This document shows positions 4,463-22,108 of a DNA stretch of 44,102 bases, in pieces. The translations under genes and the position numbers were made by a program. The stretch comes from an uncultured Ruminococcus sp. (GTDB lineage: Bacteria; Bacillota; Clostridia; Oscillospirales; Ruminococcaceae). Location: NCBI GenBank assembly GCA_902783005.1, contig CACZPI010000010.1:1-44102 (forward strand), given 5' to 3'. Below the pieces are notes generated by a model. It saw only the letters and a program-made list of their open reading frames with translations, did not search any database and was not told the DNA's origin. The number at the start of each line of letters is the position of its first letter. Position 1 is the stretch's first letter.

Positions 4463-6703
4463 TCAGCCTGCGGTGACGATCTCGCTGCCGCCCCATTCCA
4501 CGACGGTAAAGCCGTTTCTGACAAAGGGCGTGAATTCCTGCGGCTCGGTCTCCACTGCATGTTCCAGCGGGACATAGGCCATGAACACCCGGAGGATGCT
4601 GTCCGGCTCCGGGGTAATGTGCAGCCTTGCGGAATCTGTATAGGCCTCCCCCTGGAAGGCGATCAGATTGTAGCGGTTGTGCTCCATCCGCGGCAGCCAG
4701 TACACGATGAATTCATTCATTTCCGATTCTGTCAGCCCCATGCGGGTGAGCTGTTCCTTCAGGAAGGCTTCGGTGTCGCTGCCCGCCACACAGAATCCCT
4801 TCGTAAAATCAAACCGGGTGCGGCAGTTCACGCTGTCCCAGAAAAGGTATCTGTGATGCGTGCCGTCTGCCTTGTTCAGAAGCGTGCCGTCCGGGAATGC
4901 GGTAATGTCCCAGCCGTCCTGGTACTTCGGATAGGTCGTGGAAAGCGTGGATTCCGTCAGCTCCAGCTCCACATGCACATCGGTTTCCTGCTCCGGATAG
5001 AGGTAGATCACGGGCTTGTCCGCCGCAGCATCAAAAAAGACTGTCTGCGCCCCGCTGTCATCCACCGTCCGGATCCAGCCTTTCAGGCCGTTGAATCTGG
5101 TATAGAGCCAGTTGGGTTCCCCCTCCATGTAGCCGAGCTCAAACAGATTGGAAAATCTGGGAATCTCCGCGATCACCCGGGCATTGTCATCGGGTGCGGT
5201 ATACAGGAACAGGCTGTCGGCTGTCACCGTCATCAGTCCCCCATAGCCGGAGAAGATGTCCGGCGGGATGACCGCCTGCTGCAACAGCAGCCGTTTGAGC
5301 ATACACAGATCGAGCACGTCGATCCGGCCGTCCCGGTACAGATCCATGGCAGTCCAGTCAGACAGTGCCGCATCCGGATCTGCATGCAGCCATCTTTGCA
5401 GCAGTACGGCATCCACGGTATTGAGCTCGCCGTTTCCGTCGGCGTCGCCGTTTGCATTCCATTTGAGCGTGCAGGTCACTTCGATACAGTCGGACGTCTC
5501 ATTCGTGAGCGAAATGCCTGTTAGCGTATAATAGCCTGCATCCGAATCCATTTCCATCGCATAATTGCACTGTTCATCGTAGGCGCGGATGGAATCCACA
5601 GTGCAGGGATTGGAGGTGATTTCAAACATTTCGCTGGTATGGGGCGCCTGAACCGTGTCCTTCCGGAGGGCGACCCAGGTATCCGGAAATACAGTCAGCG
5701 CACCGGTATCCTGATCGACAAAGGTAAAGACCGTGCTGCCCTTCCGATCCGGGGAAAAGTCGCGGATCACCGTGCCGCCTTCCTGGATCTCATAAATGCC
5801 GCTGGTCTGCGGTTCCGGCTCGTCGTCACTCCATTGCCGGCCGATCCCCCATTCCACATTGACCTGGCCGTCAGTCACAGGCTGGTAAAGGATCACGGAT
5901 GCAGTGCCGGAGCCGTCGAGAGGCTCAAGCTCGAAGGGCGTGCAGTAGGATTGCAGCACCTCCTTAATGCTGCCTTCGCCGCTCTGCGTCATGACCAGTT
6001 TCTCACCGGCTGCGGCATGGAGATCCGCACAGTAGGCAATGTAATTGCCATGCACCGAGGCGCGGCCGTACTGCATGAGAAAATCATTGAATTCCGGGGC
6101 ACTGTCCGGCAGCCAGCCGTAAAGATCCGTTTCTGTGGTTGTGCCGTCGGTATTGGCGAAGCTGAATGTTTCCGTTGTCCGTAAATCACCGTCATACTTC
6201 TCTGTCCAGGAAACGGTCAGATCATAGTTCTCAAGCACCCGGAACAGCTCCACTTCAAATGCCTGCTGCGTCTTGCAGACCGCATAGGTCTCAAAGAAGC
6301 TGTAATCATGGGAATAGATCCCCAGCCTTTCGCAGTATGCTTCATAGGCCGCAACTGCCTGCGGATCCTCGGGATCGGGCTTTTCCGGGATCTCCAGCTC
6401 ATAGATCTTCGATTCCCCGGCGGCAGGGGTATTGACCATGGTCATGCTGCCGGAAAGCGAGAAGCTGTATTCATCCTCCCGGTACTGGATCATCGGCCTG
6501 ACCAGGCAAATCACATTGTCATGCACATAGGATTTTCCGTGCGTGTTGTAAAATTGCAGCGCATCCGCAAAATCCTGCGGCACCCAGTCGGGCAGCGTGC
6601 CGATCACCTGATCCTCCGGCACAGCCGCCTGCACCGGAGGCAGCGTGACAGCAGACAAAAGCATCATTCCGGCTGTCAGAGATGCAAGCAATCTGGTTTT
6701 CAT
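4463..6703 (-). CDS. Secreted multidomain protein: N-terminal region, internal dockerin, SH3-like, KPxIYLYP domain
   Basis: 746 residues. A signal peptide (MKTRLLASLTAGMMLLSAVTLPPVQA) leads into about 390 residues I do not recognise, then a type I dockerin in the middle of the chain (GDADGNGELNTVDAVLLQRW ... DGRIDVLDLCMLK), a bacterial SH3-like domain (LFLYTAPDDNARVIAEIP ... NGLKGWIRTVDD) and a C-terminal domain of about 170 residues that begins KPVIYLYPEQ and ends GFTVVEWGG. The same terminal domain occurs in the protein at 16775-18349. An internal rather than terminal dockerin is unusual. The ATG is preceded by AGGAGG. The gene is monocistronic between its own promoter and a bidirectional terminator. 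The product is extracellular; its activity is unknown. Confidence 0.8.
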   Translation of the reverse strand: MKTRLLASLTAGMMLLSAVTLPPVQAAVPEDQVIGTLPDWVPQDFADALQFYNTHGKSYVHDNVICLVRPMIQYREDEYSFSLSGSMTMVNTPAAGESKIYELEIPEKPDPEDPQAVAAYEAYCERLGIYSHDYSFFETYAVCKTQQAFEVELFRVLENYDLTVSWTEKYDGDLRTTETFSFANTDGTTTETDLYGWLPDSAPEFNDFLMQYGRASVHGNYIAYCADLHAAAGEKLVMTQSGEGSIKEVLQSYCTPFELEPLDGSGTASVILYQPVTDGQVNVEWGIGRQWSDDEPEPQTSGIYEIQEGGTVIRDFSPDRKGSTVFTFVDQDTGALTVFPDTWVALRKDTVQAPHTSEMFEITSNPCTVDSIRAYDEQCNYAMEMDSDAGYYTLTGISLTNETSDCIEVTCTLKWNANGDADGNGELNTVDAVLLQRWLHADPDAALSDWTAMDLYRDGRIDVLDLCMLKRLLLQQAVIPPDIFSGYGGLMTVTADSLFLYTAPDDNARVIAEIPRFSNLFELGYMEGEPNWLYTRFNGLKGWIRTVDDSGAQTVFFDAAADKPVIYLYPEQETDVHVELELTESTLSTTYPKYQDGWDITAFPDGTLLNKADGTHHRYLFWDSVNCRTRFDFTKGFCVAGSDTEAFLKEQLTRMGLTESEMNEFIVYWLPRMEHNRYNLIAFQGEAYTDSARLHITPEPDSILRVFMAYVPLEHAVETEPQEFTPFVRNGFTVVEWGGSEIVTAG

Positions 6704-6756
6704 CGTACATTCCTCCTTCTGTCGCGGGTATGCGAGCGGGTATTCCTGTTGGGTAT

Positions 6757-15954: not shown

Positions 15955-16773
15955 ATGATCGCTGTATTGTGTGCTGTACTGTTTGTCCTCTCGGTCTGTG
16001 CGGCAGTCTTCTTTGATTGTTCGTGGATCTTCTGCCTGATCGCCGCGGCGGTATCGGCAGTGCTGTTCGTCATTGAAGTGTTCCTGTTCCGGCAGTCAAA
16101 GATCAAGCATGTGCTTGCAGGACTTGCCGCTGTGGCAGGACTCTGCCTGTGTCTCTTCATTCCTGTCCGTCCGACCGCCTACGGGCTGCTCGATCACACA
16201 ACGATGTATGAGAAATACCTGGATGCCGCCTACGGCAACAAGAAGGACAAGGCCGACAAGGCGCTTGCGGAGCTGACGGAAAAATACGGCGAGGATGACA
16301 ATACGCGCTTTATCCGGGTATGCTCGCTGGTGGCCTCCGGCGATGTCGGAGAAGCCGAAACGGTCGCAGCCGCCTTTTCCAACAAGGCATCCCCCTTCTA
16401 CTTGATGGCGCAGGAGGATATTATCGGCAAGAAGTATGCCTCCGCCGAAGAGATCGCCGCGCAGATGCTCCCGCTGTATCTGGAAGCGGCAGACAACAAT
16501 CCCGACTGGGATTACCCCGCAAAGCATGCAGGCGGCCTGCTCTTTGACGCCGGCGAATACGACCGCGCATGCTACTACCTGACCCGTGCGCTGCTGTACA
16601 GCGAGGACGAGGATCCGGAGCTGTATTTCCTGCTCGGTGCCGCGCTGTGCGAACAGGATCAGTATGAAAAAGGCCTGCCGCTCCTGAACCGCGCCTATGA
16701 ACTGGGCGTGGATGATGAGACGGTCGGACTGATCGCCTACTATGTGGAGCAATCCGGAATGGGGGAACAATAA
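15955..16773 (+). CDS. Membrane protein with TPR-like repeats
   Basis: 272 residues; starts 1 nt after the previous stop, with AAAGGAGG at 15940-15947 inside the upstream gene. Three N-terminal transmembrane helices (MIAVLCAVLFVLSVCAAVFF, WIFCLIAAAVSAVLFVIEVFLF, VLAGLAAVAGLCLCLFIPV) are followed by helix-turn-helix TPR/Sel1-like repeats (AKHAGGLLFDAGEYDRACYYLTRAL, LYFLLGAALCEQDQYEKGLPLL). It looks like a shorter relative of the protein before it, without the zinc ribbon. Probably a partner in the same membrane assembly; the function is not known. Confidence 0.7.
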   Translation: MIAVLCAVLFVLSVCAAVFFDCSWIFCLIAAAVSAVLFVIEVFLFRQSKIKHVLAGLAAVAGLCLCLFIPVRPTAYGLLDHTTMYEKYLDAAYGNKKDKADKALAELTEKYGEDDNTRFIRVCSLVASGDVGEAETVAAAFSNKASPFYLMAQEDIIGKKYASAEEIAAQMLPLYLEAADNNPDWDYPAKHAGGLLFDAGEYDRACYYLTRALLYSEDEDPELYFLLGAALCEQDQYEKGLPLLNRAYELGVDDETVGLIAYYVEQSGMGEQ

Positions 16774-16774
16774 G

Positions 16775-18349
16775 ATGACAAAGTACACTATGAAACAGAT
16801 CCTTTCACTCCTGCTGACGCTGGTATTGGTGACCGGCTGTCTGGCGCCTTCCTTTGCAGAGGGCAGTCTGCGGGCGGATGCCATACTCATGCCCATTGAT
16901 TCTACAGCCACCCAGCTTACCATTACCTCACGCGCATTCCAGGCGAATGGCAAGGCACTGGTCACGGAAAAGCAGGCCTACTACCAGAACCGGCTCAAGG
17001 AATCCCTCGAAACCGGCCTGAAGTCCGGCGGTATCGGCAAGGGAATCCCGACGATCGCGGATTACATCGACAAGGCATGCCTGGCAATCAAGAACAAAGC
17101 CATTTCCTCGGTCAATTCCATCGGAAAATGGGGCATGGACAAATTTGCGGAGCTTGCACTGAACAAGCCCAACACCATGTGGCGCAAGGGACACAAGACC
17201 CTGAAATACATCCGCTGGGAACGCGCCGACCGGATGTACCGGAATTTTGAAAAGCTCGCCAATTTCAAGATGGAGGGCGGCTCTCTCAAGCTGCTCGGCA
17301 GAACCGCCAATTTCGGAGTCGGTATCTATGGATTCTCTCAGATGATAGATAATCCGACCGTCGGCCACCGGAATCCGTTTCTGGAATGGTGCGCCAATTC
17401 CATCCGCGGCATCGGCAATACCGCCTCAGTGGTAAGCGCCTTTGTGCCGGCTGAGTGGCAGGATGCGATCGGCGCCTATGCAGATGCGTTTCTGGTCGCG
17501 GATATTGTCCTGAACAGCCCGATCGTGGTGGATATTGTCAATGACAGTCTGGATATGATCCGGGATTATGACACGGCAAACGGGCATGAGGGTGCGCTCG
17601 GATACCTGATCGAGGCTTGGGATTTTATCAATACGACGACCGAATCCATCAATCTGGAACAGCAGAAACAGTTCGGCAACATCATCAACTGGTGGGACTA
17701 CCTGGTACACGGCATTGATGCCACCGAGCATGACAGGATCCTGGAGGAATGGGACAAGAAGGCCAAGGGCGACACCTTCCAGGGCAACGGCGTAGGTGTT
17801 TACAAGCCGAATATCTATCTTTATCCGGAGGAAACCGCAGAGATCACCGTATCATTTGCAAGACCGGAGCTTCTGACGGTCACCGACCCGCCGTACCAAA
17901 ACAGATGGCAGGTCACTGCACAGCCGGACGGCACGCTTGAAACGGACGGCGGATCCTACGGCTACCTCTTCTATGAATCCCTGACCGATCCGTCGGACTA
18001 CCAGACAACAGACGGATTTGTGATCCCGGCCGAGAACCGCGAGGCTGTCTTCACGCAGATCCTGCGCGGCTACGGGCTCAATGCTGCCGAGATCGCAGAT
18101 TTCAACGAATTCTGGTGCAGCAAGCTCGAGGCAGGACGCTCCTATGCGATGTATCCGCAGCTTGGTGACACACTTGATGTCACGATGCCGCTGACCATAT
18201 CCCCGGCACCGGATTCGATCGGACGGATCTGGTTTGCATTCGAGAAGGATGCCGTGCCGCAGCATGCAGCGCAGCCCGAAGCATTTGCAAGGGACGGCTT
18301 TACCGTGATCGAATGGGGCGGATTCTTCCTGCATCCCAGTGATTCCTGA
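16775..18349 (+). CDS. Exported protein with C-terminal KPxIYLYP domain
   Basis: 524 residues; the ATG at 16775 is 1 nt after the upstream stop with a weak GGGGGAA site, so translation is likely coupled. The N-terminus MKQILSLLLTLVLVTGCLAPSFA is a signal sequence that also contains a lipobox (LVTGC), leaving lipoprotein or cleaved secretion open. Residues 30-335 are unrecognised and partly helical. The C-terminus, KPNIYLYPEETAEITVSF ... GFTVIEWGGFF, matches the terminal domain of the dockerin protein at 4463-6703 over about 170 residues, including PDGTL, YLF[YW][ED]S, EF(W) and the acidic-aromatic end. No dockerin is present here. Last gene of the TPR operon. Confidence 0.7.
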   Translation: MTKYTMKQILSLLLTLVLVTGCLAPSFAEGSLRADAILMPIDSTATQLTITSRAFQANGKALVTEKQAYYQNRLKESLETGLKSGGIGKGIPTIADYIDKACLAIKNKAISSVNSIGKWGMDKFAELALNKPNTMWRKGHKTLKYIRWERADRMYRNFEKLANFKMEGGSLKLLGRTANFGVGIYGFSQMIDNPTVGHRNPFLEWCANSIRGIGNTASVVSAFVPAEWQDAIGAYADAFLVADIVLNSPIVVDIVNDSLDMIRDYDTANGHEGALGYLIEAWDFINTTTESINLEQQKQFGNIINWWDYLVHGIDATEHDRILEEWDKKAKGDTFQGNGVGVYKPNIYLYPEETAEITVSFARPELLTVTDPPYQNRWQVTAQPDGTLETDGGSYGYLFYESLTDPSDYQTTDGFVIPAENREAVFTQILRGYGLNAAEIADFNEFWCSKLEAGRSYAMYPQLGDTLDVTMPLTISPAPDSIGRIWFAFEKDAVPQHAAQPEAFARDGFTVIEWGGFFLHPSDS

Positions 18350-18359
18350 GAATAAAATG

Positions 18360-18395
18360 CAGCCGCTTATCATCGGATAAGCGGCTGTGTTCTTT
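18360..18395. terminator. Bidirectional rho-independent terminator
   Basis: Perfect 12-bp stem CAGCCGCTTATC / GATAAGCGGCTG with a 4-nt loop, TGTTCTTT on the plus side and GCATTTTATT on the minus side. It ends both the TPR operon and the YGPP/radical SAM operon. Confidence 0.88.
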
Positions 18396-18399
18396 CAGA

Positions 18400-18696
18400 T
18401 CATGCATCTTCCACGGTATACCGCCGGATCACGGTATCTGTGACATATTCCGCCTTCAATGCGCCAAGCGCCTTGAAATGCGGTGTTTCTCCATGCAGCC
18501 GGACTGCCTCGGCATCCTGCCACAGCTCCAGAAGCAGCAGTTCATCCTCCTGCTCCGGACTGAAATAGTAATCGTACTGTACATTGCCGTCCTCCGCGCG
18601 GGATGCCGCGGGAATGCCGCTTTCGCTGAGCGCATCGTAAAATGCCTGCCGCATGCCGTGTCTGACATAATAATGCACTTCCACAAATTGCTTCAT
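18400..18696 (-). CDS. Antibiotic-biosynthesis-monooxygenase (ABM) fold protein
   Basis: 98 residues, typical ABM size; ATG at 18696 after AAGGAGG. The pattern KQFVEVHYYVRHGMRQAFYDAL, DGNVQYDYYFSPEQEDELLLLELWQDAEAVRLHGETPHFKAL is that of small dimeric ABM proteins such as quinol monooxygenases and Dimeric alpha-beta barrel enzymes. The family oxidises aromatic rings without cofactor or is non-enzymatic. It lies 21 nt after the radical SAM gene and before the operon terminator, so it is the last gene of the YGPP operon. Whether it acts on the modified product or is a passenger is open. Confidence 0.8.
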   Translation of the reverse strand: MKQFVEVHYYVRHGMRQAFYDALSESGIPAASRAEDGNVQYDYYFSPEQEDELLLLELWQDAEAVRLHGETPHFKALGALKAEYVTDTVIRRYTVEDA

Positions 18697-18717
18697 ATAT
18701 CCTCCTTGTGCTGCCCG

Positions 18718-19794
18718 CTATGCATCAAACAGGATCCCCCGCAGGCAGAGCATCGGCTCGTTCCTGTCAAAATTCCAGCTATGGAAGGAATCCCCGTGAC
18801 AGTTCTGCTTCTCCGGGCAGGTGCGGCAGCGTTCATTTTCCTCCGCCAGATCCCGGCGGAATGCCTGGAACCGGTTTTCCCAGACATCCTTGAACCGATC
18901 CTGCAAAATATGTCCCTGCACCAGCTCCGGCCGGCGTTCAATATCCAGACACGCCAGAATATCCCCCGTCGAGGTAACGCTTGCCACGAATGTTCCGGCG
19001 GTGCAGTGGAAATACCAGTCGCGCACCTCGCGTTCGTATTCCATGCCCAGATAATGCGAGCAGCCGTAGCAGACGGGCTCCCCGGCAATGCGCTTGTCAC
19101 GGATATACGCGAACAGATACCGGTAATCCTCCGCTGTCAGCAGCAGCTCCGGATGATCGAGGGCGCGTCCCATGGGCTCAATATTGATGATGCGCCAGGA
19201 ATCGATGTCCATTTTGTCGAAGATCGCAAAAAGGGCATCGAGCTCCCCGATATTCTGATGGGTCACGACCGTTGTGACCTGCACCGCGTCAAATCCGACG
19301 CGCAGGAGCGCTTCGATCCCGTCCATCGCCCGTCTCCATCCCCCCGGCGTCTGCCGGAAGGCATCGTGCGTGGCTTCGAGTCCGTCGATGCTCACGGAAA
19401 TGGTATTCATGCCGCAGCGCTTGAGCATCTGCGCCCTTGCATCATCAATGCGTGTCGCATTGCTCGTCATGCCCCAGTGGAATCCCAATGCATGTGCATA
19501 GCCCATGATCTCTTCAAAATCCTGCCGCAGCAGCGGCTCTCCGCCGGTGATGCACAGCATTTTGTCACCGATCCCGAAATCGACCTTGATCTCGTCCAGG
19601 AATGCCCTGTACTGCGCTGCCGTCAATTCCTGCGGGAACGACTCCCCGCAGCGGCTTCCGCAGTGCAAACAGCGCTCATTGCAGCGCTGTGTCAGCTCCA
19701 GAAACAATTGCCGCAGACGCGGCTGCTCCCAAAGGCTGTACCGGTATTCCCGCAGCGCCGCCTGATGGCGCTGCTTCATCTTCACATCCAGCAT
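18718..19794 (-). CDS. Radical SAM/SPASM peptide-modifying enzyme of the YGPP cluster
   Basis: 358 residues from the ATG at 19794 (GTGAGG 5 nt upstream), starting 7 nt after the stop of the last YGPP protein. The radical SAM site is ELTQRCNERCLHCGSRC (CX3CX2C) followed by the GGEPLL motif. The C-terminal SPASM/twitch region holds many cysteines (CYGCSHYLG, HCTAGTF, ACLDIERR, CRTCPEKQNCHG), enough for two auxiliary iron-sulfur clusters, and has VQGHILQDRFKDVWENRFQAFR, typical of peptide maturases and anaerobic sulfatase-like activators. From memory the closest group is the rSAM/lipoprotein system of Bacteroidetes and Treponema. It probably installs a carbon-based cross-link or epimerisation on the neighbouring YGPP proteins. 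The chemistry is not predictable from sequence. Confidence 0.85.
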   Translation of the reverse strand: MLDVKMKQRHQAALREYRYSLWEQPRLRQLFLELTQRCNERCLHCGSRCGESFPQELTAAQYRAFLDEIKVDFGIGDKMLCITGGEPLLRQDFEEIMGYAHALGFHWGMTSNATRIDDARAQMLKRCGMNTISVSIDGLEATHDAFRQTPGGWRRAMDGIEALLRVGFDAVQVTTVVTHQNIGELDALFAIFDKMDIDSWRIINIEPMGRALDHPELLLTAEDYRYLFAYIRDKRIAGEPVCYGCSHYLGMEYEREVRDWYFHCTAGTFVASVTSTGDILACLDIERRPELVQGHILQDRFKDVWENRFQAFRRDLAEENERCRTCPEKQNCHGDSFHSWNFDRNEPMLCLRGILFDA

Positions 19795-19801
19795 GGCTGC
19801 C

Positions 19802-20293
19802 TCACTCAAAGGATTCCGGCGGGCCGTAGACCGGCACGGGAATGTCATCCTGCGGACGGGAGGTTTCGGCATTTTCCGGTTCATCCGTCTCCACATTCGC
19901 TTCCGTCTCCGGTTCTGCCAGAGCCGGCGGCGGCCCGTAGACGCACTGCATCATCTGCCGGGAGGCATCCTCCGTCGCAACGGTAAGATGATCCCCGGTC
20001 GCCGTTTCCTCTGCCGCCTGCTCTTTCGTGGTCGTCTTCTCCGCCGCAGTCGTCTGCTTTGCGGCGGTCGTTTCCTCCGAAGCGGTGGTCTGCTTCACAG
20101 TCGTTTCCGGCTCCTCGGATTCGCCCGCATAGTCAACCGGAGGGCCGTAGACATCCTCCTCGTCCCCGATGCCGGGTGCGACCGGATCTGTCCCGCTGAC
20201 CCCTGTTCCGGGATCCGTACAGCCGGCCAGCCCCAGCGCTGCCGCAGCCGCAAATGCTGCCGCCGTCAGCCGGGTTTTAAGACTCTTCTTCAA
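19802..20293 (-). CDS. Lipoprotein with three YGPP motifs (putative radical SAM substrate)
   Basis: 163 residues, starting at a TTG (20291-20293): the good site AGGAGG is 9 nt upstream and no in-frame ATG fits, while the upstream frame has no signal peptide. The signal peptide ends in the lipobox LAGC (C25). The three motifs are DVYGPPV (Y49), CVYGPPP (Y119) and PVYGPPE (Y156, seven residues from the C-terminus). Motifs 1 and 2 are separated by a Thr/Glu/Lys-rich linker (residues 62-100) of the sort used as extended cell-wall spacers. It overlaps the upstream lipoprotein gene by 17 nt. A modified, surface-exposed lipoprotein is inferred. Confidence 0.75.
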   Translation of the reverse strand: MKKSLKTRLTAAAFAAAAALGLAGCTDPGTGVSGTDPVAPGIGDEEDVYGPPVDYAGESEEPETTVKQTTASEETTAAKQTTAAEKTTTKEQAAEETATGDHLTVATEDASRQMMQCVYGPPPALAEPETEANVETDEPENAETSRPQDDIPVPVYGPPESFE

Positions 20294-20471
20294 GGCATTC
20301 CACCTCCTGCGGCGCATCCCCCGGCAGATAGGCCGGAAGACGCGGGTCATTCTCATACATGGCAGTATCCCCGTCCATCTCGGACGGCGGCGGTCCGTAG
20401 ACACATCCCACACTCAGCACCGAGGCTGCAAACATGGCAGCAGTGATCGCTGCGACCTTACTTTTTTTCAT
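20277..20471 (-). CDS. Small lipoprotein with CVYGPPP at its mature N-terminus
   Basis: 64 residues. The ATG at 20471 is preferred over the one at 20480 because GAAGGAG is 10 nt before it. The signal peptide (AAITAAMFAASVLSVGC) has lipobox LSVGC with C23, so the mature, lipidated protein would begin CVYGPPPSEM: the motif is directly attached to the lipid anchor. The remaining 35 residues are acidic and disordered-looking, with one further cysteine near the C-terminus (QEVECLEEES). The gene overlaps the upstream YGPP peptide gene by 14 nt and the downstream one by 17 nt. Too small for an enzyme; a substrate for the radical SAM protein is the simplest reading. Confidence 0.75.
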   Translation of the reverse strand: MKKSKVAAITAAMFAASVLSVGCVYGPPPSEMDGDTAMYENDPRLPAYLPGDAPQEVECLEEES

Positions 20472-20622
20472 GCTTGTCATTCTCCTTCTCCGGCGAACCG
20501 GTCGGCTCTGTATCCGGCATTCTGACCGGCTTCGGTGCCTTCCGGAATGCGGACGGCGGCCCGTAGATCACTGTCGGGATCCTGCGTTCCTCCCATGATG
20601 CGGGCTTCTTCGGCTTTTTCAT
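20458..20622 (-). CDS. 54-residue cytoplasmic-type peptide with one IYGPP motif
   Basis: The ATG at 20622 follows AAGGAGG by 9 nt, and this site overlaps the stop of the methyltransferase gene. The peptide has no signal sequence. It is basic at the N-terminus (MKKPKKPASWEERR), carries TVIYGPPSAF (Y20), and ends in a charged, Pro-rich tail (KENDKHEKK). It shares only the YGPP core with the two lipoproteins next to it. Such short, charged peptides beside a SPASM enzyme are usually RiPP precursors. It could be the true secreted-product precursor or a third substrate. It is too short to be found by default gene calling with a strict length cut. Confidence 0.7.
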   Translation of the reverse strand: MKKPKKPASWEERRIPTVIYGPPSAFRKAPKPVRMPDTEPTGSPEKENDKHEKK

Positions 20623-20636
20623 CCCGGAACGCCTCC

Positions 20637-21317
20637 TTACTTTACTGCAACGATCACGGAAAACTTGTGGTAGGTATAGATCGTCTTGACAATGCGGAAT
20701 CCACTCTTCCGCAGCATTTCGGTTTCCTCCTCCGAGGAGCATTCACGGTCAAGCTGCCGGCGCTCTGTCCAGAGCATCATTTCGCGCTTGTTCAGCGCCG
20801 TGGAGGCAAGCTGCCGTTCCCAGAATGCGTCAAACCAATGGTTCAGCTCCGGCGTTCCGGCGCAGAACTGATCGTAATTCACAAAAATTCCCCCGTCCGG
20901 CAGCTTTTCATAGATGCGGGAAAACAGATCCTGCTTCTGCACATCCTCCAGATGATGGATGGAAAGCCCGGAGACAATCACATCGAACTGTCCCTCCGGC
21001 AGACCCTGCGTGAAATCCATATGGACACAGGATACATGCGGATTTCCGGCAAATCTTTCCTGCGCCGCAGCCAGCATGTCATCGGCAATATCCACCAGTA
21101 CATACTCCGCTTTCGGAAAATACCGGTACCAGCATTCCGTCAGGATCCCTGTACCGGCCCCAAGATCCAGTACCCGCGAGAGTGCCGGAATGGCACAGGT
21201 GATGGCCTCGGTCGTCGTGTGGTAGAAGTCGTCAAAGCACGGAATGAACTGCGTGCGCCTGGCATCGTACTCCCCCGCGATCTGATTGAACTGCTGATCG
21301 AGTGTCTTTGTCATCAT
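20637..21317 (-). CDS. Class I SAM-dependent methyltransferase heading the YGPP operon
   Basis: 226 residues from the first of two ATGs at 21317 (GGGAGG 8 nt upstream). Motif I is VLDLGAGTGILTE, motif II YVLVDIADDML, followed by HMDFTQGLPEGQFDVIVSGLSIHHLED, as in the Methyltransf_25/UbiE-like group. The target (small molecule, peptide or tRNA) cannot be decided. Its stop codon and the ribosome binding site of the first YGPP peptide overlap, and its promoter is the only one seen for the six-gene operon, so it is likely part of the system rather than a neighbour by chance. Confidence 0.85.
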   Translation of the reverse strand: MMTKTLDQQFNQIAGEYDARRTQFIPCFDDFYHTTTEAITCAIPALSRVLDLGAGTGILTECWYRYFPKAEYVLVDIADDMLAAAQERFAGNPHVSCVHMDFTQGLPEGQFDVIVSGLSIHHLEDVQKQDLFSRIYEKLPDGGIFVNYDQFCAGTPELNHWFDAFWERQLASTALNKREMMLWTERRQLDRECSSEEETEMLRKSGFRIVKTIYTYHKFSVIVAVK

Positions 21318-21347: not shown

Positions 21348-21376
21348 ATTATAGCACAAAGTCCGGAAGAAATCAA
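21348..21376 (-). promoter_or_regulatory. Promoter of the YGPP/radical SAM operon
   Basis: Minus strand: TTGATT (21371-21376), 17-nt spacer, TGC-TATAAT (21348-21353). The leader is about 25 nt. Confidence 0.8.
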
Positions 21377-21434: not shown

Positions 21435-21463
21435 TTGACAAACACTATAAGTTGTGGTAGAAT
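21435..21463 (+). promoter_or_regulatory. Promoter of the NrdD-tail-like gene
   Basis: TTGACA (21435-21440), 17-nt spacer, TGG-TAGAAT (21458-21463). The spacer and -10 are covered by an NrdR-box-like sequence (see next entry). Confidence 0.8.
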
Positions 21464-21524: not shown

Positions 21525-21806
21525 ATGACAATTAAAACAGGTGCAAAATATCATGTCCGCGGCGGGGAGATGTCCCTTGCTGAAATGCAGCAGTACGAGA
21601 TGATGCTCAAGGAAAAGTATCCGGAGCGCATCTTCACCGAAATGACCTTTACCGTGGACGGCGACTATGTGGATGTGGACTATCAGTATGATACGGTTCC
21701 CTTCGACCGCATCCGCCGCATCACCGGTTATCTGGTCGGCAATATGACCCGCTGGAATGACGCCAAGCGTGCCGAGGAGGCTGACCGCGTCAAGCACGGT
21801 ATCTGA
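21525..21806 (+). CDS. Small protein resembling the C-terminal segment of anaerobic ribonucleotide reductase (NrdD)
   Basis: 93 residues; ATG at 21525 after AGGAGG (9 nt). The sequence GAKYHVRGGEMSLAEMQQYEMM, MTFTVDGDYVDVDYQYDTVPFD and RIRRITGYLVGNM...NDAKRAEEADRVKHGI matches short stand-alone proteins of Clostridia that are annotated as anaerobic ribonucleoside-triphosphate reductase, and its end recalls the NrdD terminus around the glycyl-radical loop (RRxxGYLx...KxxExxxRV). It lacks the glycyl radical and the zinc cysteines, so it is not a catalytic subunit. NrdR-like boxes in its promoter support a link to deoxynucleotide metabolism. Confidence 0.6.
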   Translation: MTIKTGAKYHVRGGEMSLAEMQQYEMMLKEKYPERIFTEMTFTVDGDYVDVDYQYDTVPFDRIRRITGYLVGNMTRWNDAKRAEEADRVKHGI

Positions 21807-21856: not shown

Positions 21857-21877
21857 AAACAGAAATCCATTTACAAG

Positions 21878-21951
21878 TCGGGATGACAGGACTCGAACCT
21901 GCGGCATCCTGCTCCCAAAGCAGGCACTCTACCAAACTGAGCTACATCCCG
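21878..21951 (-). tRNA. tRNA-Pro (UGG)
   Basis: 74 nt on the minus strand. Acceptor CGGGATG / CATCCCG, discriminator A, D-arm GCTCAGTTTGGTAGAGT, anticodon stem CCTGC/GCAGG with loop TTTGGGA (anticodon TGG at plus 21915-21917), and T-arm GCAGGTTCGAGTCCTGT. CCA is not encoded. Confidence 0.95.
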
Positions 21952-21963
21952 GGATTACCGGAT

Positions 21964-21994
21964 AAAAGCCCCTGTGCATTGCAGGGGCTTTATT
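21964..21994 (-). terminator. Hairpin between the two tRNAs
   Basis: Near-perfect stem AAAGCCCCTG / CAGGGGCTTT with T-tract on the minus side (GGGGCTTTTATC). It would end the tRNA-Arg transcript or act as a processing site before tRNA-Pro. Confidence 0.7.
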
Positions 21995-22000
21995 CGCATA

Positions 22001-22074
22001 TGTGCCTGACAGGACTCGAACCTGCGCTCTGAGGAGTCGGAGTCCTCTGTTTTATCCATCTAAACTACAGGCAC
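22001..22074 (-). tRNA. tRNA-Arg (CCG)
   Basis: 74 nt on the minus strand. Acceptor GTGCCTG / CAGGCAC, discriminator A, anticodon stem GAGGA/TCCTC with loop CTCCGAC (anticodon CCG, reading CGG), T-arm GCAGGTTCGAGTCCTGT. CCA is not encoded. Confidence 0.95.
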
Positions 22075-22108
22075 ATGTCTGATCCGTCTCTGCGGACCGT
22101 ACTTTATT

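Follow-up and report, generated by a model that had tools for sequence, protein, structure and literature searches.

A TIGR04133-like radical SAM enzyme gene paired with genes for Tyr-Gly-Pro-Pro-tagged, mostly exported proteins in Ruminococcus

Several described systems couple a radical SAM (rSAM) enzyme to a peptide substrate in ways that recall the locus analysed here. In the TIGR04133/TIGR04134 system of Bacteroidales and Treponema, the enzyme gene is paired with the gene of a lipoprotein precursor; no described function for this system was found in the literature searched. The splicease PlpXY from Pleurocapsa acts on X-Tyr-Gly, with MYG and LYG as natural sites, and can splice several sites within one precursor. 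PlpX works with an RRE protein, PlpY, on precursors carrying Nif11 or nitrile-hydratase-like leaders, and its products, the spliceotides, which are defined by loss of C8H9NO and an alpha-ketoamide, have been described as protease inhibitors. PIRPGYGLPI tags are also accepted by PlpXY, and the tags made for it include LYGLP and GYGLP; one PlpX tag type, GAVAAGYGVVFPG, is without a proline two residues after the glycine, and a table on FtsZ lists both LYGLP tags and most GYG tags as unmodified by PlpX. The mycofactocin maturase MftC, likewise a SPASM rSAM enzyme, acts on a Val-Tyr pair by oxidative decarboxylation of the tyrosine.

In the stretch of DNA analysed (44,102 nucleotides from an uncultured Ruminococcus sp., referred to as the window), a minus-strand unit of six genes encodes a methyltransferase, three small proteins, a radical SAM/SPASM enzyme and an ABM protein between a single promoter-like and a single terminator-like site (Table 1). 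Gene calls together with a promoter and terminator scan confirmed this layout, which an earlier note had described with five [V/I]YGPP motifs over the three small proteins (IYGPPS, CVYGPPP, DVYGPPV, CVYGPPP, VYGPPE). The enzyme, P0001, contains CxxxCxxC at residues 38-45 and a SPASM part with invariant cysteines 264, 282, 323, 326, 332 and 350. All three motifs of precursor 3 lie inside a T/E/A-rich linker, and precursor 1 resembles the signal-less YGPP peptides of two related loci, L025 and L020.

Table 1. Positions of the genes, motifs and flanking signals of the six-gene unit in the window.
Feature	Position	Strand	Remarks
Sigma-70-type promoter-like site TTGATT-17-TATAAT	21348..21376	-	scan; TG precedes second hexamer
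SAM methyltransferase	20637..21314	-	gene 1 of unit; Pfam Methyltransf_25; alternative ATG at 21317
Precursor 1, 54 aa	20458..20622	-	one motif, VIYGPPS; without signal sequence
YGPP motif DNA, VIYGPPS	20555..20567	-	precursor 1
Precursor 2, 64 aa, lipoprotein-like	20277..20471	-	lipobox SVGC, VYGPPP immediately after; alternative ATG at 20480
YGPP motif DNA, CVYGPPP	20389..20401	-	precursor 2
Precursor 3, 163 aa, lipoprotein-like, TTG start	19802..20293	-	lipobox LAGC; DVYGPPV, CVYGPPP, VYGPPE
YGPP motif DNA, DVYGPPV	20139..20151	-	precursor 3
YGPP motif DNA, CVYGPPP	19929..19941	-	precursor 3
YGPP motif DNA, VYGPPE	19818..19830	-	precursor 3
Radical SAM/SPASM enzyme P0001, 358 aa	18718..19794	-	top family TIGR04133, under its cut-off
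ABM-fold protein	18400..18696	-	final gene of unit
Intrinsic-terminator-like site	18360..18387	-	scan; 12-pair stem, T-rich tail

The comparison with TIGR04133/TIGR04134 envisaged in that note gave a divided outcome: TIGR04133 is the best family for the window enzyme, but the score of 258.6 bits falls below the cut-off of 425, and none of the window's proteins matched TIGR04134 at E <= 1. All 46 enzymes scanned matched TIGR04133 (best E-value 7e-90, versus 2.2e-48 for the next family), which was also the top family for each of nine enzymes checked from the YGPP/YGSP branch; no genome in the two sets searched (0/21 and 0/398) held a score over the cut-off, and TIGR04134 was absent among the matches listed, 25 of 48 families, for 69 precursors. 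A tree did not settle where the enzyme branches with respect to TIGR04133 or the remaining rSAM enzymes. Kinship with the pair is supported by this family rank and by the partner proteins. Three TIGR04133 enzymes over the cut-off adjoin TIGR04134 lipoproteins with CYGMP, CEYGSP and CEYGTP, so that all three partners read carry Tyr-Gly-x-Pro at or near the lipobox cysteine. An adjacent lipoprotein with Tyr-Gly-x-Pro, a feature noticed here and not part of the TIGR04133 family definition, is likewise present in the window, and an enzyme 53% identical has IYGSP and LYGSP upstream. Unlike the TIGR04133/TIGR04134 system, the ruminococcal one has YGPP as its motif, up to 15 copies per locus, dockerin and other carriers, and an N-terminal signature of its own.

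The pairing of enzyme and tag is strict. Within the source genome (2.87 Mb, 88% complete), a DNA pattern for [V/L/I/M/F]YGPP matched seven times; five of these matches fall in the operon, which argues against a chance cluster, and the other two are the P-loop of RuvB and one 16-aa frame. YGPP was found upstream of the enzyme and on the same strand in 80/80 related loci (the best 80 of 501 confirmed), where 359 motifs lie within 4 kb of the enzyme versus three elsewhere in 1.0 Mb, those three also being upstream, while the remaining eleven arrangements of Y, G, P and P together gave 6 and 43 in these two zones. In a sample of the family, YGPP genes adjoin the enzyme in 11 of the 12 genomes carrying it, the twelfth has five dockerin-YGPP genes in trans, and one genome outside the family also shows the pairing. 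All eight pattern matches in four genomes lacking the enzyme (at 1e-30) belong to P-loop proteins or other unrelated frames, and at eleven loci whose rSAM enzymes are more distant relatives, no YGPP occurred. The proposed enzyme-substrate pairing is thus borne out; neither related enzymes mostly devoid of YGPP neighbours nor motifs equally frequent far from such enzymes, the two outcomes named beforehand as contradicting it, were encountered. Because the pairing is so strict, the enzyme very probably modifies the tag, and its action on YGPP is put forward with high confidence; the link of enzyme to substrate is strong, and the chemistry below is inferred.

The proteins bearing the tag are otherwise unrelated, including dockerin proteins, lipoproteins and a DUF805 protein, with YGSP on a zinc-ribbon-like protein. 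Contrary to the earlier claim that the small proteins share nothing but YGPP, two of the three window precursors share an N-terminal signature (MKKSKVAAITAAMFAA, LKKSLKTRLTAAAFAA), which marks YGPP proteins throughout the group: 84 of 138 YGPP ORFs contain it versus 1 of 11,515 other ORFs, and among ORFs with a signal-like start it occurs in 63 of 102 with YGPP and in 1 of 94 without. The strict signature is missing in 54 of the 138 YGPP ORFs, and none of 12 YGPP-free, dockerin-pattern ORFs in the related loci has the leader-like N-terminus, which resembles a Sec or lipoprotein signal. The idea of lipoproteins is supported by the appearance of two of the three window precursors; precursor 1 is without a signal sequence, a lack at odds with a purely surface role. 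A dockerin (PF00404, E <= 0.01) was detected in 35 of 69 sampled precursors of relatives and in none of the three in the window; no other recognisable domain bears the tag as often, a point that the earlier note overlooked. With their signal sequence and type I dockerin, the tagged relatives resemble the cellulosomal dockerin proteins of Ruminococcus (the source genome has 115 dockerin matches), from which they differ in being short, with the YGPP tag as their only other recognisable feature.

Within the tag, which occurs in 1 to 15 copies per locus and usually has Val or Leu before the tyrosine, the positions are unequally constrained. In the 138 YGPP ORFs, a set chosen for holding YGPP, GPP after a residue other than Tyr was seen 0 times (shuffle mean 11.2) and Tyr-x-Pro-Pro with a residue other than Gly once (9.9), versus 19 variants replaced at the first proline (5.6) and 52 at the second (5.3). 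Tyr and Gly are hence nearly invariant and the prolines looser, in agreement with the earlier suggestion of tyrosine as the focus of the reaction.

Building on the conserved pairing, the motif constraint, the carrier architectures and the TIGR04133 kinship, a dedicated protein-modification system of two conserved parts may be proposed: an enzyme of the radical SAM/SPASM type, TIGR04133-like, and at least one protein with the tag X-Tyr-Gly-Pro-Pro, these carriers being mostly secreted or lipid-anchored. Briefly, the enzyme would recognise the tag itself in the cytoplasm, probably aided by the leader-like N-terminus common to many carriers, and act at the Tyr-Gly step, presumably by splicing with excision of tyramine. 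After export, the modified protein would be kept on the cell by a lipid anchor, which is expected of two window carriers out of three, or joined to cohesin-bearing complexes through a dockerin, which roughly half of the sampled relatives carry. Every tag would thereby present at the surface an electrophilic ketoamide with a Val or Leu side chain, a group well fitted to trap serine or cysteine proteases, which is its possible purpose. Taken as a whole, a TIGR04133-like maturase acting on Tyr-Gly by tyramine-excising splicing, with the tagged carriers exported, is the preferred but tentative reading, and falls a little short of an even chance.

The tag loosely resembles the site where PlpXY cuts a tyrosine unit from the protein chain: X-Tyr-Gly is present in the precursor, the enzyme is a SPASM rSAM protein, and the PIRP-X-YGLPI tags share the X-Y-G-x-P shape. 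Unlike PlpXY, the present system shows no PlpY-like partner and no Nif11 or nitrile-hydratase-like leader. Among ORFs of at least 60 aa in the 80 loci, no third conserved gene family that might supply an RRE-like partner was found (the next commonest occurs in 22), nor any conserved protease or transporter family of the kind expected for RiPP leader removal; dedicated precursor genes do adjoin the modifying enzyme, as in RiPP systems. MftC acts on a C-terminal tyrosine and has the chaperone gene mftB beside its own, whereas the tyrosine here is internal and no such gene was seen at the window locus. Ranked after TIGR04133 among models of characterised RiPP maturases, MftC scored 134.9 bits against the window enzyme, followed by TIGR04103, presumably the type of PlpX, at 110.3 bits (far under its 725-bit cut-off), with WgkB, StsB, PapB, DynA and SkfB lower still. 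This ranking is weak evidence, since the AhbD, NirJ2, TIGR04053 and NirJ models (heme-pathway and others) outscore TIGR04103, and since in one relative, L149, the cross-linking WgkB (137.3 bits) stands above TIGR04103 (134.5 bits).

That last score would suit a cross-link, as proposed in the earlier note. In such a reading the tyrosine ring or backbone would be joined to a nearby residue to give a small rigid ring per tag, either as a three-residue Tyr-Gly-Pro cyclophane or through a bond to Trp or Phe two or three residues past the prolines. Many SPASM maturases make cross-links, the prolines could pre-shape a ring, and potential partners exist: in 140 of the 359 motifs the sixth position beyond Tyr holds Phe, and Trp occupies the fourth in 36 and the fifth in 40. 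Aromatic residues after the prolines are, however, far from universal, the prolines themselves are replaced in variants that almost never lose Tyr or Gly, the first-proline position is taken by Met, Ser or Thr in the TIGR04134 partners, and the cross-linking models rank below MftC and TIGR04103 for the window enzyme; a cross-link is accordingly considered unlikely. Tyramine-excising splicing is favoured over it because of the near-invariance of Tyr and Gly, the looser prolines and the likeness of X-Y-G-x-P to the splicease tag.

The same near-invariance fits any chemistry on the Tyr-Gly pair, and rSAM enzymes catalyse epimerisation, oxidation, methyl transfer and cleavage-type reactions. A different alteration of one residue of this pair (epimerisation, oxidation or methyl transfer at Cbeta or Calpha, or cleavage of the backbone), which would leave the tag as the site of modification, is therefore possible if doubtful, as no specific sign of any of these was seen and the splicease likeness is more specific. 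That YGPP serves merely for recognition or binding, the enzyme altering something else in the carrier or a further partner, might account for its presence on unrelated carriers; this is improbable, since the tag and the N-terminal signature, the latter often missing in its strict form, are the sole features seen in common, and multiple copies per protein would be typical of modified cores. A general small-molecule operon of methyltransferase, rSAM and ABM genes, with the small lipoproteins incidental, is suggested by the enclosure of all six genes by a single pair of promoter-like and terminator-like sites, and was rejected as exceedingly improbable: the methyltransferase and ABM genes occur in 0/95 related loci, while YGPP genes occur in 80/80 contig loci. 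Their absence there also makes the methyltransferase a passenger or local addition, not conserved with the enzyme, and leaves the inclusion of both genes in the system unsupported.

For the TIGR04133/TIGR04134 pair, the analysis supplies a candidate substrate site, X-Tyr-Gly-x-Pro, and a candidate reaction, both specific enough to be put to the test. Should tyramine be excised as proposed, modified proteins would be built into or around the cellulosome, which ranks among the most intensively studied enzyme machines of gut bacteria and for which the literature searched yielded no mention of them, and peptides minus a tyramine unit would be missed by ordinary proteomics. An enzyme that works without a partner on a short tag, in carriers unrelated to one another, would also be a useful labelling tool. 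A wider, speculative and probably overextended view is that TIGR04133-type enzymes, together with their ruminococcal branch, are spliceases that need no partner and make up a large group so far unrecognised. Cellulosome builders of the gut would use them to write arrays of Val/Leu alpha-keto-beta-amino units into proteins that bear a dockerin or a lipid anchor, and both the fibre-degrading complex and the cell surface would thus carry many covalent reversible inhibitors of gut proteases. The bacteria carrying the enzyme and the tagged proteins are plant-fibre-digesting inhabitants of the gut, and the tagged proteins are mostly exported.

The earlier note had proposed that the radical SAM/SPASM enzyme acts on neighboring small proteins carrying the tag X-Tyr-Gly-Pro-Pro (YGPP), and the pairing itself was borne out: the two outcomes that the note had named as refuting it, related loci without YGPP and YGPP genes far from the enzyme, were looked for and were not encountered in the branch of window-like enzymes, apart from a genome with its YGPP genes elsewhere (G096) and a relative with YGSP (L149). 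At a threshold of E <= 1e-30, the enzyme was detected in 12 of the 197 genomes of the family sample, and YGPP proteins are encoded directly upstream of it in 11 of these 12 carriers. A contig scan, in which the best 80 of 501 confirmed related loci were counted, revealed YGPP upstream and on the same strand in all 80, at least four of which (L046, L047, L062, and L100) are, judged by equal length, contigs of the genome search as well. Across the 1,002,708 bases of these best 80 loci, 359 YGPP motifs lie within 4 kb upstream on the same strand and 3 elsewhere, the latter also being upstream; for the eleven other orderings of the letters Y, G, P, and P, the respective counts are 6 and 43. The pair also occurs in a genome from a different family within the class (L125/L129, with VVYGPPEFF and DVYGPPED), and no YGPP was found in eleven loci of more distant radical SAM enzymes (L130-L132, L150-L153, and L157-L160). 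When four carrier genomes were compared with four genomes lacking the enzyme, 39 pattern matches were obtained, of which 9 are known operon sites and 29 were translated and read, with G188:C32 left out. In the enzyme-free genomes, five of the eight matches fall in what, by motif, are P-loop proteins, four of them RuvB-like, and three in unrelated frames, which are 54, 384, and 530 residues long. Throughout the window genome, the [V/L/I/M/F]YGPP coding pattern occurs seven times, with five matches in the operon, one in the P-loop of RuvB, and one in a 16-residue frame.

The twelfth carrier, G096, has no YGPP genes adjoining its enzyme, and was rejected as a counter-example because a whole-genome pattern search located such genes at other sites. 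Briefly, five dockerin-YGPP genes lie at four places away from the enzyme and account for 9 of the 14 pattern matches, the other 5 falling in RuvB, in two long frames of unrelated sequence, and in two of <30 aa; the dockerin domain PF00404 was confirmed in both of the proteins tested (two of the five). By eye, the translation of the gene 3′ of the G096 enzyme resembles a secreted protease of the papain type with a dockerin at its C terminus; the gene may be there by chance or as a partner of the modified proteins.

Judging from gene content, only the enzyme and its precursors appear to be conserved parts of the system. Clustering of ORFs of at least 60 aa around the enzyme in the best 80 of 501 loci gave an enzyme family in 72 (the rest being missed by the simple ORF caller), a linked precursor family in 71, and at most 22 for the next family. 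The precursor family, a single-linkage cluster into which at least one YGPP-free dockerin ORF (L082) has been drawn, comprises 113 ORFs, all upstream of the enzyme. The idea that the whole six-gene operon forms one system had to be abandoned, since homologues of the methyltransferase and the ABM protein were found in none of 95 related loci (tblastn, E <= 1e-3), a partly non-independent set with flanks of up to 7 kb or more, far shorter in some, in which the radical SAM enzyme was matched in all 95. Both proteins were therefore dropped as tailoring enzymes.

In the window, the minus-strand genes between a promoter-like and a terminator-like site encode the methyltransferase, three small proteins with five YGPP motifs in total, the radical SAM/SPASM enzyme, and the ABM-fold protein; the closest named enzyme among the matches listed, with 80% identity, is from uncultured Ruminococcus RUG10795. 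The description of the small proteins as surface lipoproteins is supported for two of them, which carry the lipoprotein signals SVGC and LAGC, and fails for the first, of 54 residues, which has no signal sequence. Such signal-less YGPP peptides are present in three genomes, all with Ile before YGPP, and an intracellular product is possible for them. With 115 dockerin matches, the window genome probably builds cellulosomes, as judged from a count of dockerins.

Precursor bodies were sampled as 64 proteins from 39 of the 80 loci, the three of the window, and two more, with three of 42 non-redundant loci left out and three of the 80 enzyme matches excluded for a stop inside the matched stretch. 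PF00404 was identified in 35 of these 69 precursors and DUF805 in one, as well as in L024; otherwise, many are lipoprotein-like and a few signal-less. YGPP tags are fused behind a DUF805 membrane domain in two loci. With start codons assigned by a simple ribosome-site rule, a signature of about MKK[TS]xxTxxTAAxFAAA is frequent in the signal region, being found in 84 of 138 YGPP ORFs versus 1 of 11,515 other ORFs, most of which are non-genes. A fairer control takes ORFs whose start resembles a signal sequence: of 102 such ORFs with YGPP, 63 have the signature, as against 1 of the 94 that lack YGPP (a looser pattern gives 70 and 2), and none of the 12 YGPP-free ORFs fitting a dockerin pattern has it. 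By these counts the signature is more than ordinary signal-sequence similarity, and it could be what the enzyme uses as a leader.

The constraint on the tag is uneven. Within the 138 YGPP ORFs, whose selection for holding YGPP inflates the intact-motif count and among which a few frames are doubtful (one of them from L046), tags with tyrosine replaced number 0 versus 11.2 in shuffles and those with glycine replaced 1 versus 9.9, the figures for the first and second proline being 19 versus 5.6 and 52 versus 5.3. As tyrosine and glycine are near-invariant and the prolines more often replaced, the core of the tag would be X-Tyr-Gly, with proline preferred after it. Val occupies position -1 in 225 of the 359 tags of the best 80 of 501 loci and Leu does so in 82; also frequent are Gln (-3), Pro (-4), and, six residues past Tyr, Phe. 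No YGPP is found at L149, a contig from a viral collection whose enzyme is 53% identical to that of the window; upstream of this enzyme lies a gene for a repeated zinc-ribbon-like protein with IYGSPSTRKY and LYGSPSTRKY. Despite its viral listing the contig is probably chromosomal, because an apparent phenylalanyl-tRNA synthetase gene pair, recognized by eye, adjoins.

The suggested kinship with the TIGR04133/TIGR04134 radical SAM/lipoprotein pair of Bacteroidales and Treponema was supported. TIGR04133 was matched by all 46 enzymes scanned and was the top family for each of nine branch enzymes whose score tables were compared; the window enzyme scores 258.6 bits where the cut-off is 425, and so counts as a relative rather than a member. 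Three plasmid enzymes exceed this cut-off (Treponema saccharophilum, 451.4 bits; Parabacteroides distasonis, 607.9; Phocaeicola massiliensis, in an unannotated record, 617.5), and no further TIGR04133 loci were found in phages, plasmids, and viral contigs. At all three, a TIGR04134 lipoprotein adjoins the enzyme and carries Tyr-Gly-x-Pro either directly behind the lipobox Cys or up to about a dozen residues further on (CYGMP, CEYGSP, and CEYGTP), and thus X-Y-G-x-P is common to this pair and the ruminococcal system. A tree grouped the three TIGR04133 enzymes (100/100) and the YGPP enzymes with L149 (88/96); with its long branches, the branching order of YGPP enzymes, TIGR04133, and others was not settled.

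As to the chemistry, splicing, in which tyramine would be excised from X-Tyr-Gly as by PlpXY of Pleurocapsa, is tentatively placed first, ahead of some other reaction at tyrosine or glycine, which seems doubtful, and of the tyrosine cross-link originally proposed, which is considered unlikely. For the window enzyme, the cross-linking models StsB, WgkB, PapB, DynA, and SkfB score below MftC (134.9 bits) and TIGR04103 (110.3 bits), the latter presumably the family of PlpX, which speaks against a cross-link. MftC and TIGR04103 enzymes act on the backbone surroundings of tyrosine. This ranking is weak evidence, because heme-pathway models score between and above these two and because WgkB outscores TIGR04103 in L149, a point in favor of a cross-link, as are the frequent aromatic residues after the tag, which could serve as partners and count to that extent against splicing. 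Splicing is further disfavored by the lack of the strict N-terminal signature in 54 of the 138 YGPP ORFs and, together with a surface role, by the signal-less window precursor. Moreover, PlpXY includes the partner PlpY, whereas no PlpY-like partner was seen among ORFs of at least 60 aa in the ruminococcal system. A search of 299 Bacillota genomes for PlpX gave a match at E <= 1e-60 in one, below the cut-off, and the comparison with PlpX rests on HMM scores and the motif.

The motif itself favors splicing. Natural sites of PlpXY are MYG and LYG (PMC10533398, PMC10373908, PMC11002830). Designed tags have the core PIRP-X-YGLPI, where X is either G or L, and so share the form X-Y-G-x-P with the YGPP tags. 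A 10-residue PlpA2-derived GYG tag is functional when placed on an Affibody; in FtsZ, two longer PIRPGYGLPI tags are functional, while both LYG tags and most others were unmodified. A second tag type, AVAAGYGVVFP, is without the proline. The unit lost in splicing, C8H9NO, has a mass of 135.068 by its atoms and is given as 135.0757 in PMC10533398, where tetrazines were applied to the aminopyruvate formed from a GYG tag; a ketoamide with Val or Leu may be slower to react. Spliceotides are described as protease inhibitors in this literature (among PMC10533398, PMC10373908, PMC11002830, PMC8326336, PMC10885120, and PMC11117315). By analogy, if splicing occurs, lipid-anchored or dockerin-borne proteins could give protection in the protease-rich gut through the Val or Leu ketoamide that they would then carry. 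No published report of the enzyme-YGPP system was found among the open-licence PMC papers listed, and its novelty is judged from such papers only. How widespread splicing is has reportedly been addressed by Scott et al. 2022 (Chem).

Coordinates of the operon-flanking sites and of individual features in the window and related loci
Feature	Sequence	Position	Strand	Remark
Promoter-like site	window	21376-21348	-	site scan; 5′ of operon
Terminator-like site	window	18387-18360	-	site scan; 3′ of operon
tRNA-Pro (tgg) and tRNA-Arg (ccg)	window	21877-22075	-	directly upstream of operon
ORF of 93 aa	window	21525-21806	+	divergent
Promoter-like TTGACA-17-TAGAAT	window	21435-21463		faces the 93-aa ORF
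Secreted-looking protein of 535 aa	window	16742-18349	+	convergent with operon
Signal-less YGPP peptide	window	20458-20622	-	54 aa
Signal-less YGPP peptide	L025	2917-3078	-	54 aa
Signal-less YGPP peptide	L020	7284-7499	-	72 aa
DUF805-YGPP fusion	L023	618-1403
DUF805-YGPP fusion	L024	5296-6030
Papain-like protein with dockerin	L019 (G096)	4785-6740	-	3′ of enzyme
Zinc-ribbon-like YGSP protein	L149	5015-5995	+	upstream of enzyme

Among the neighbors of the window operon, the convergent 535-aa protein gave no Pfam match at E <= 0.01. Residues 60-91 of the divergent 93-aa ORF match the C-terminal end of the anaerobic ribonucleotide reductase NRDD, and it is odd for this tail to stand alone.
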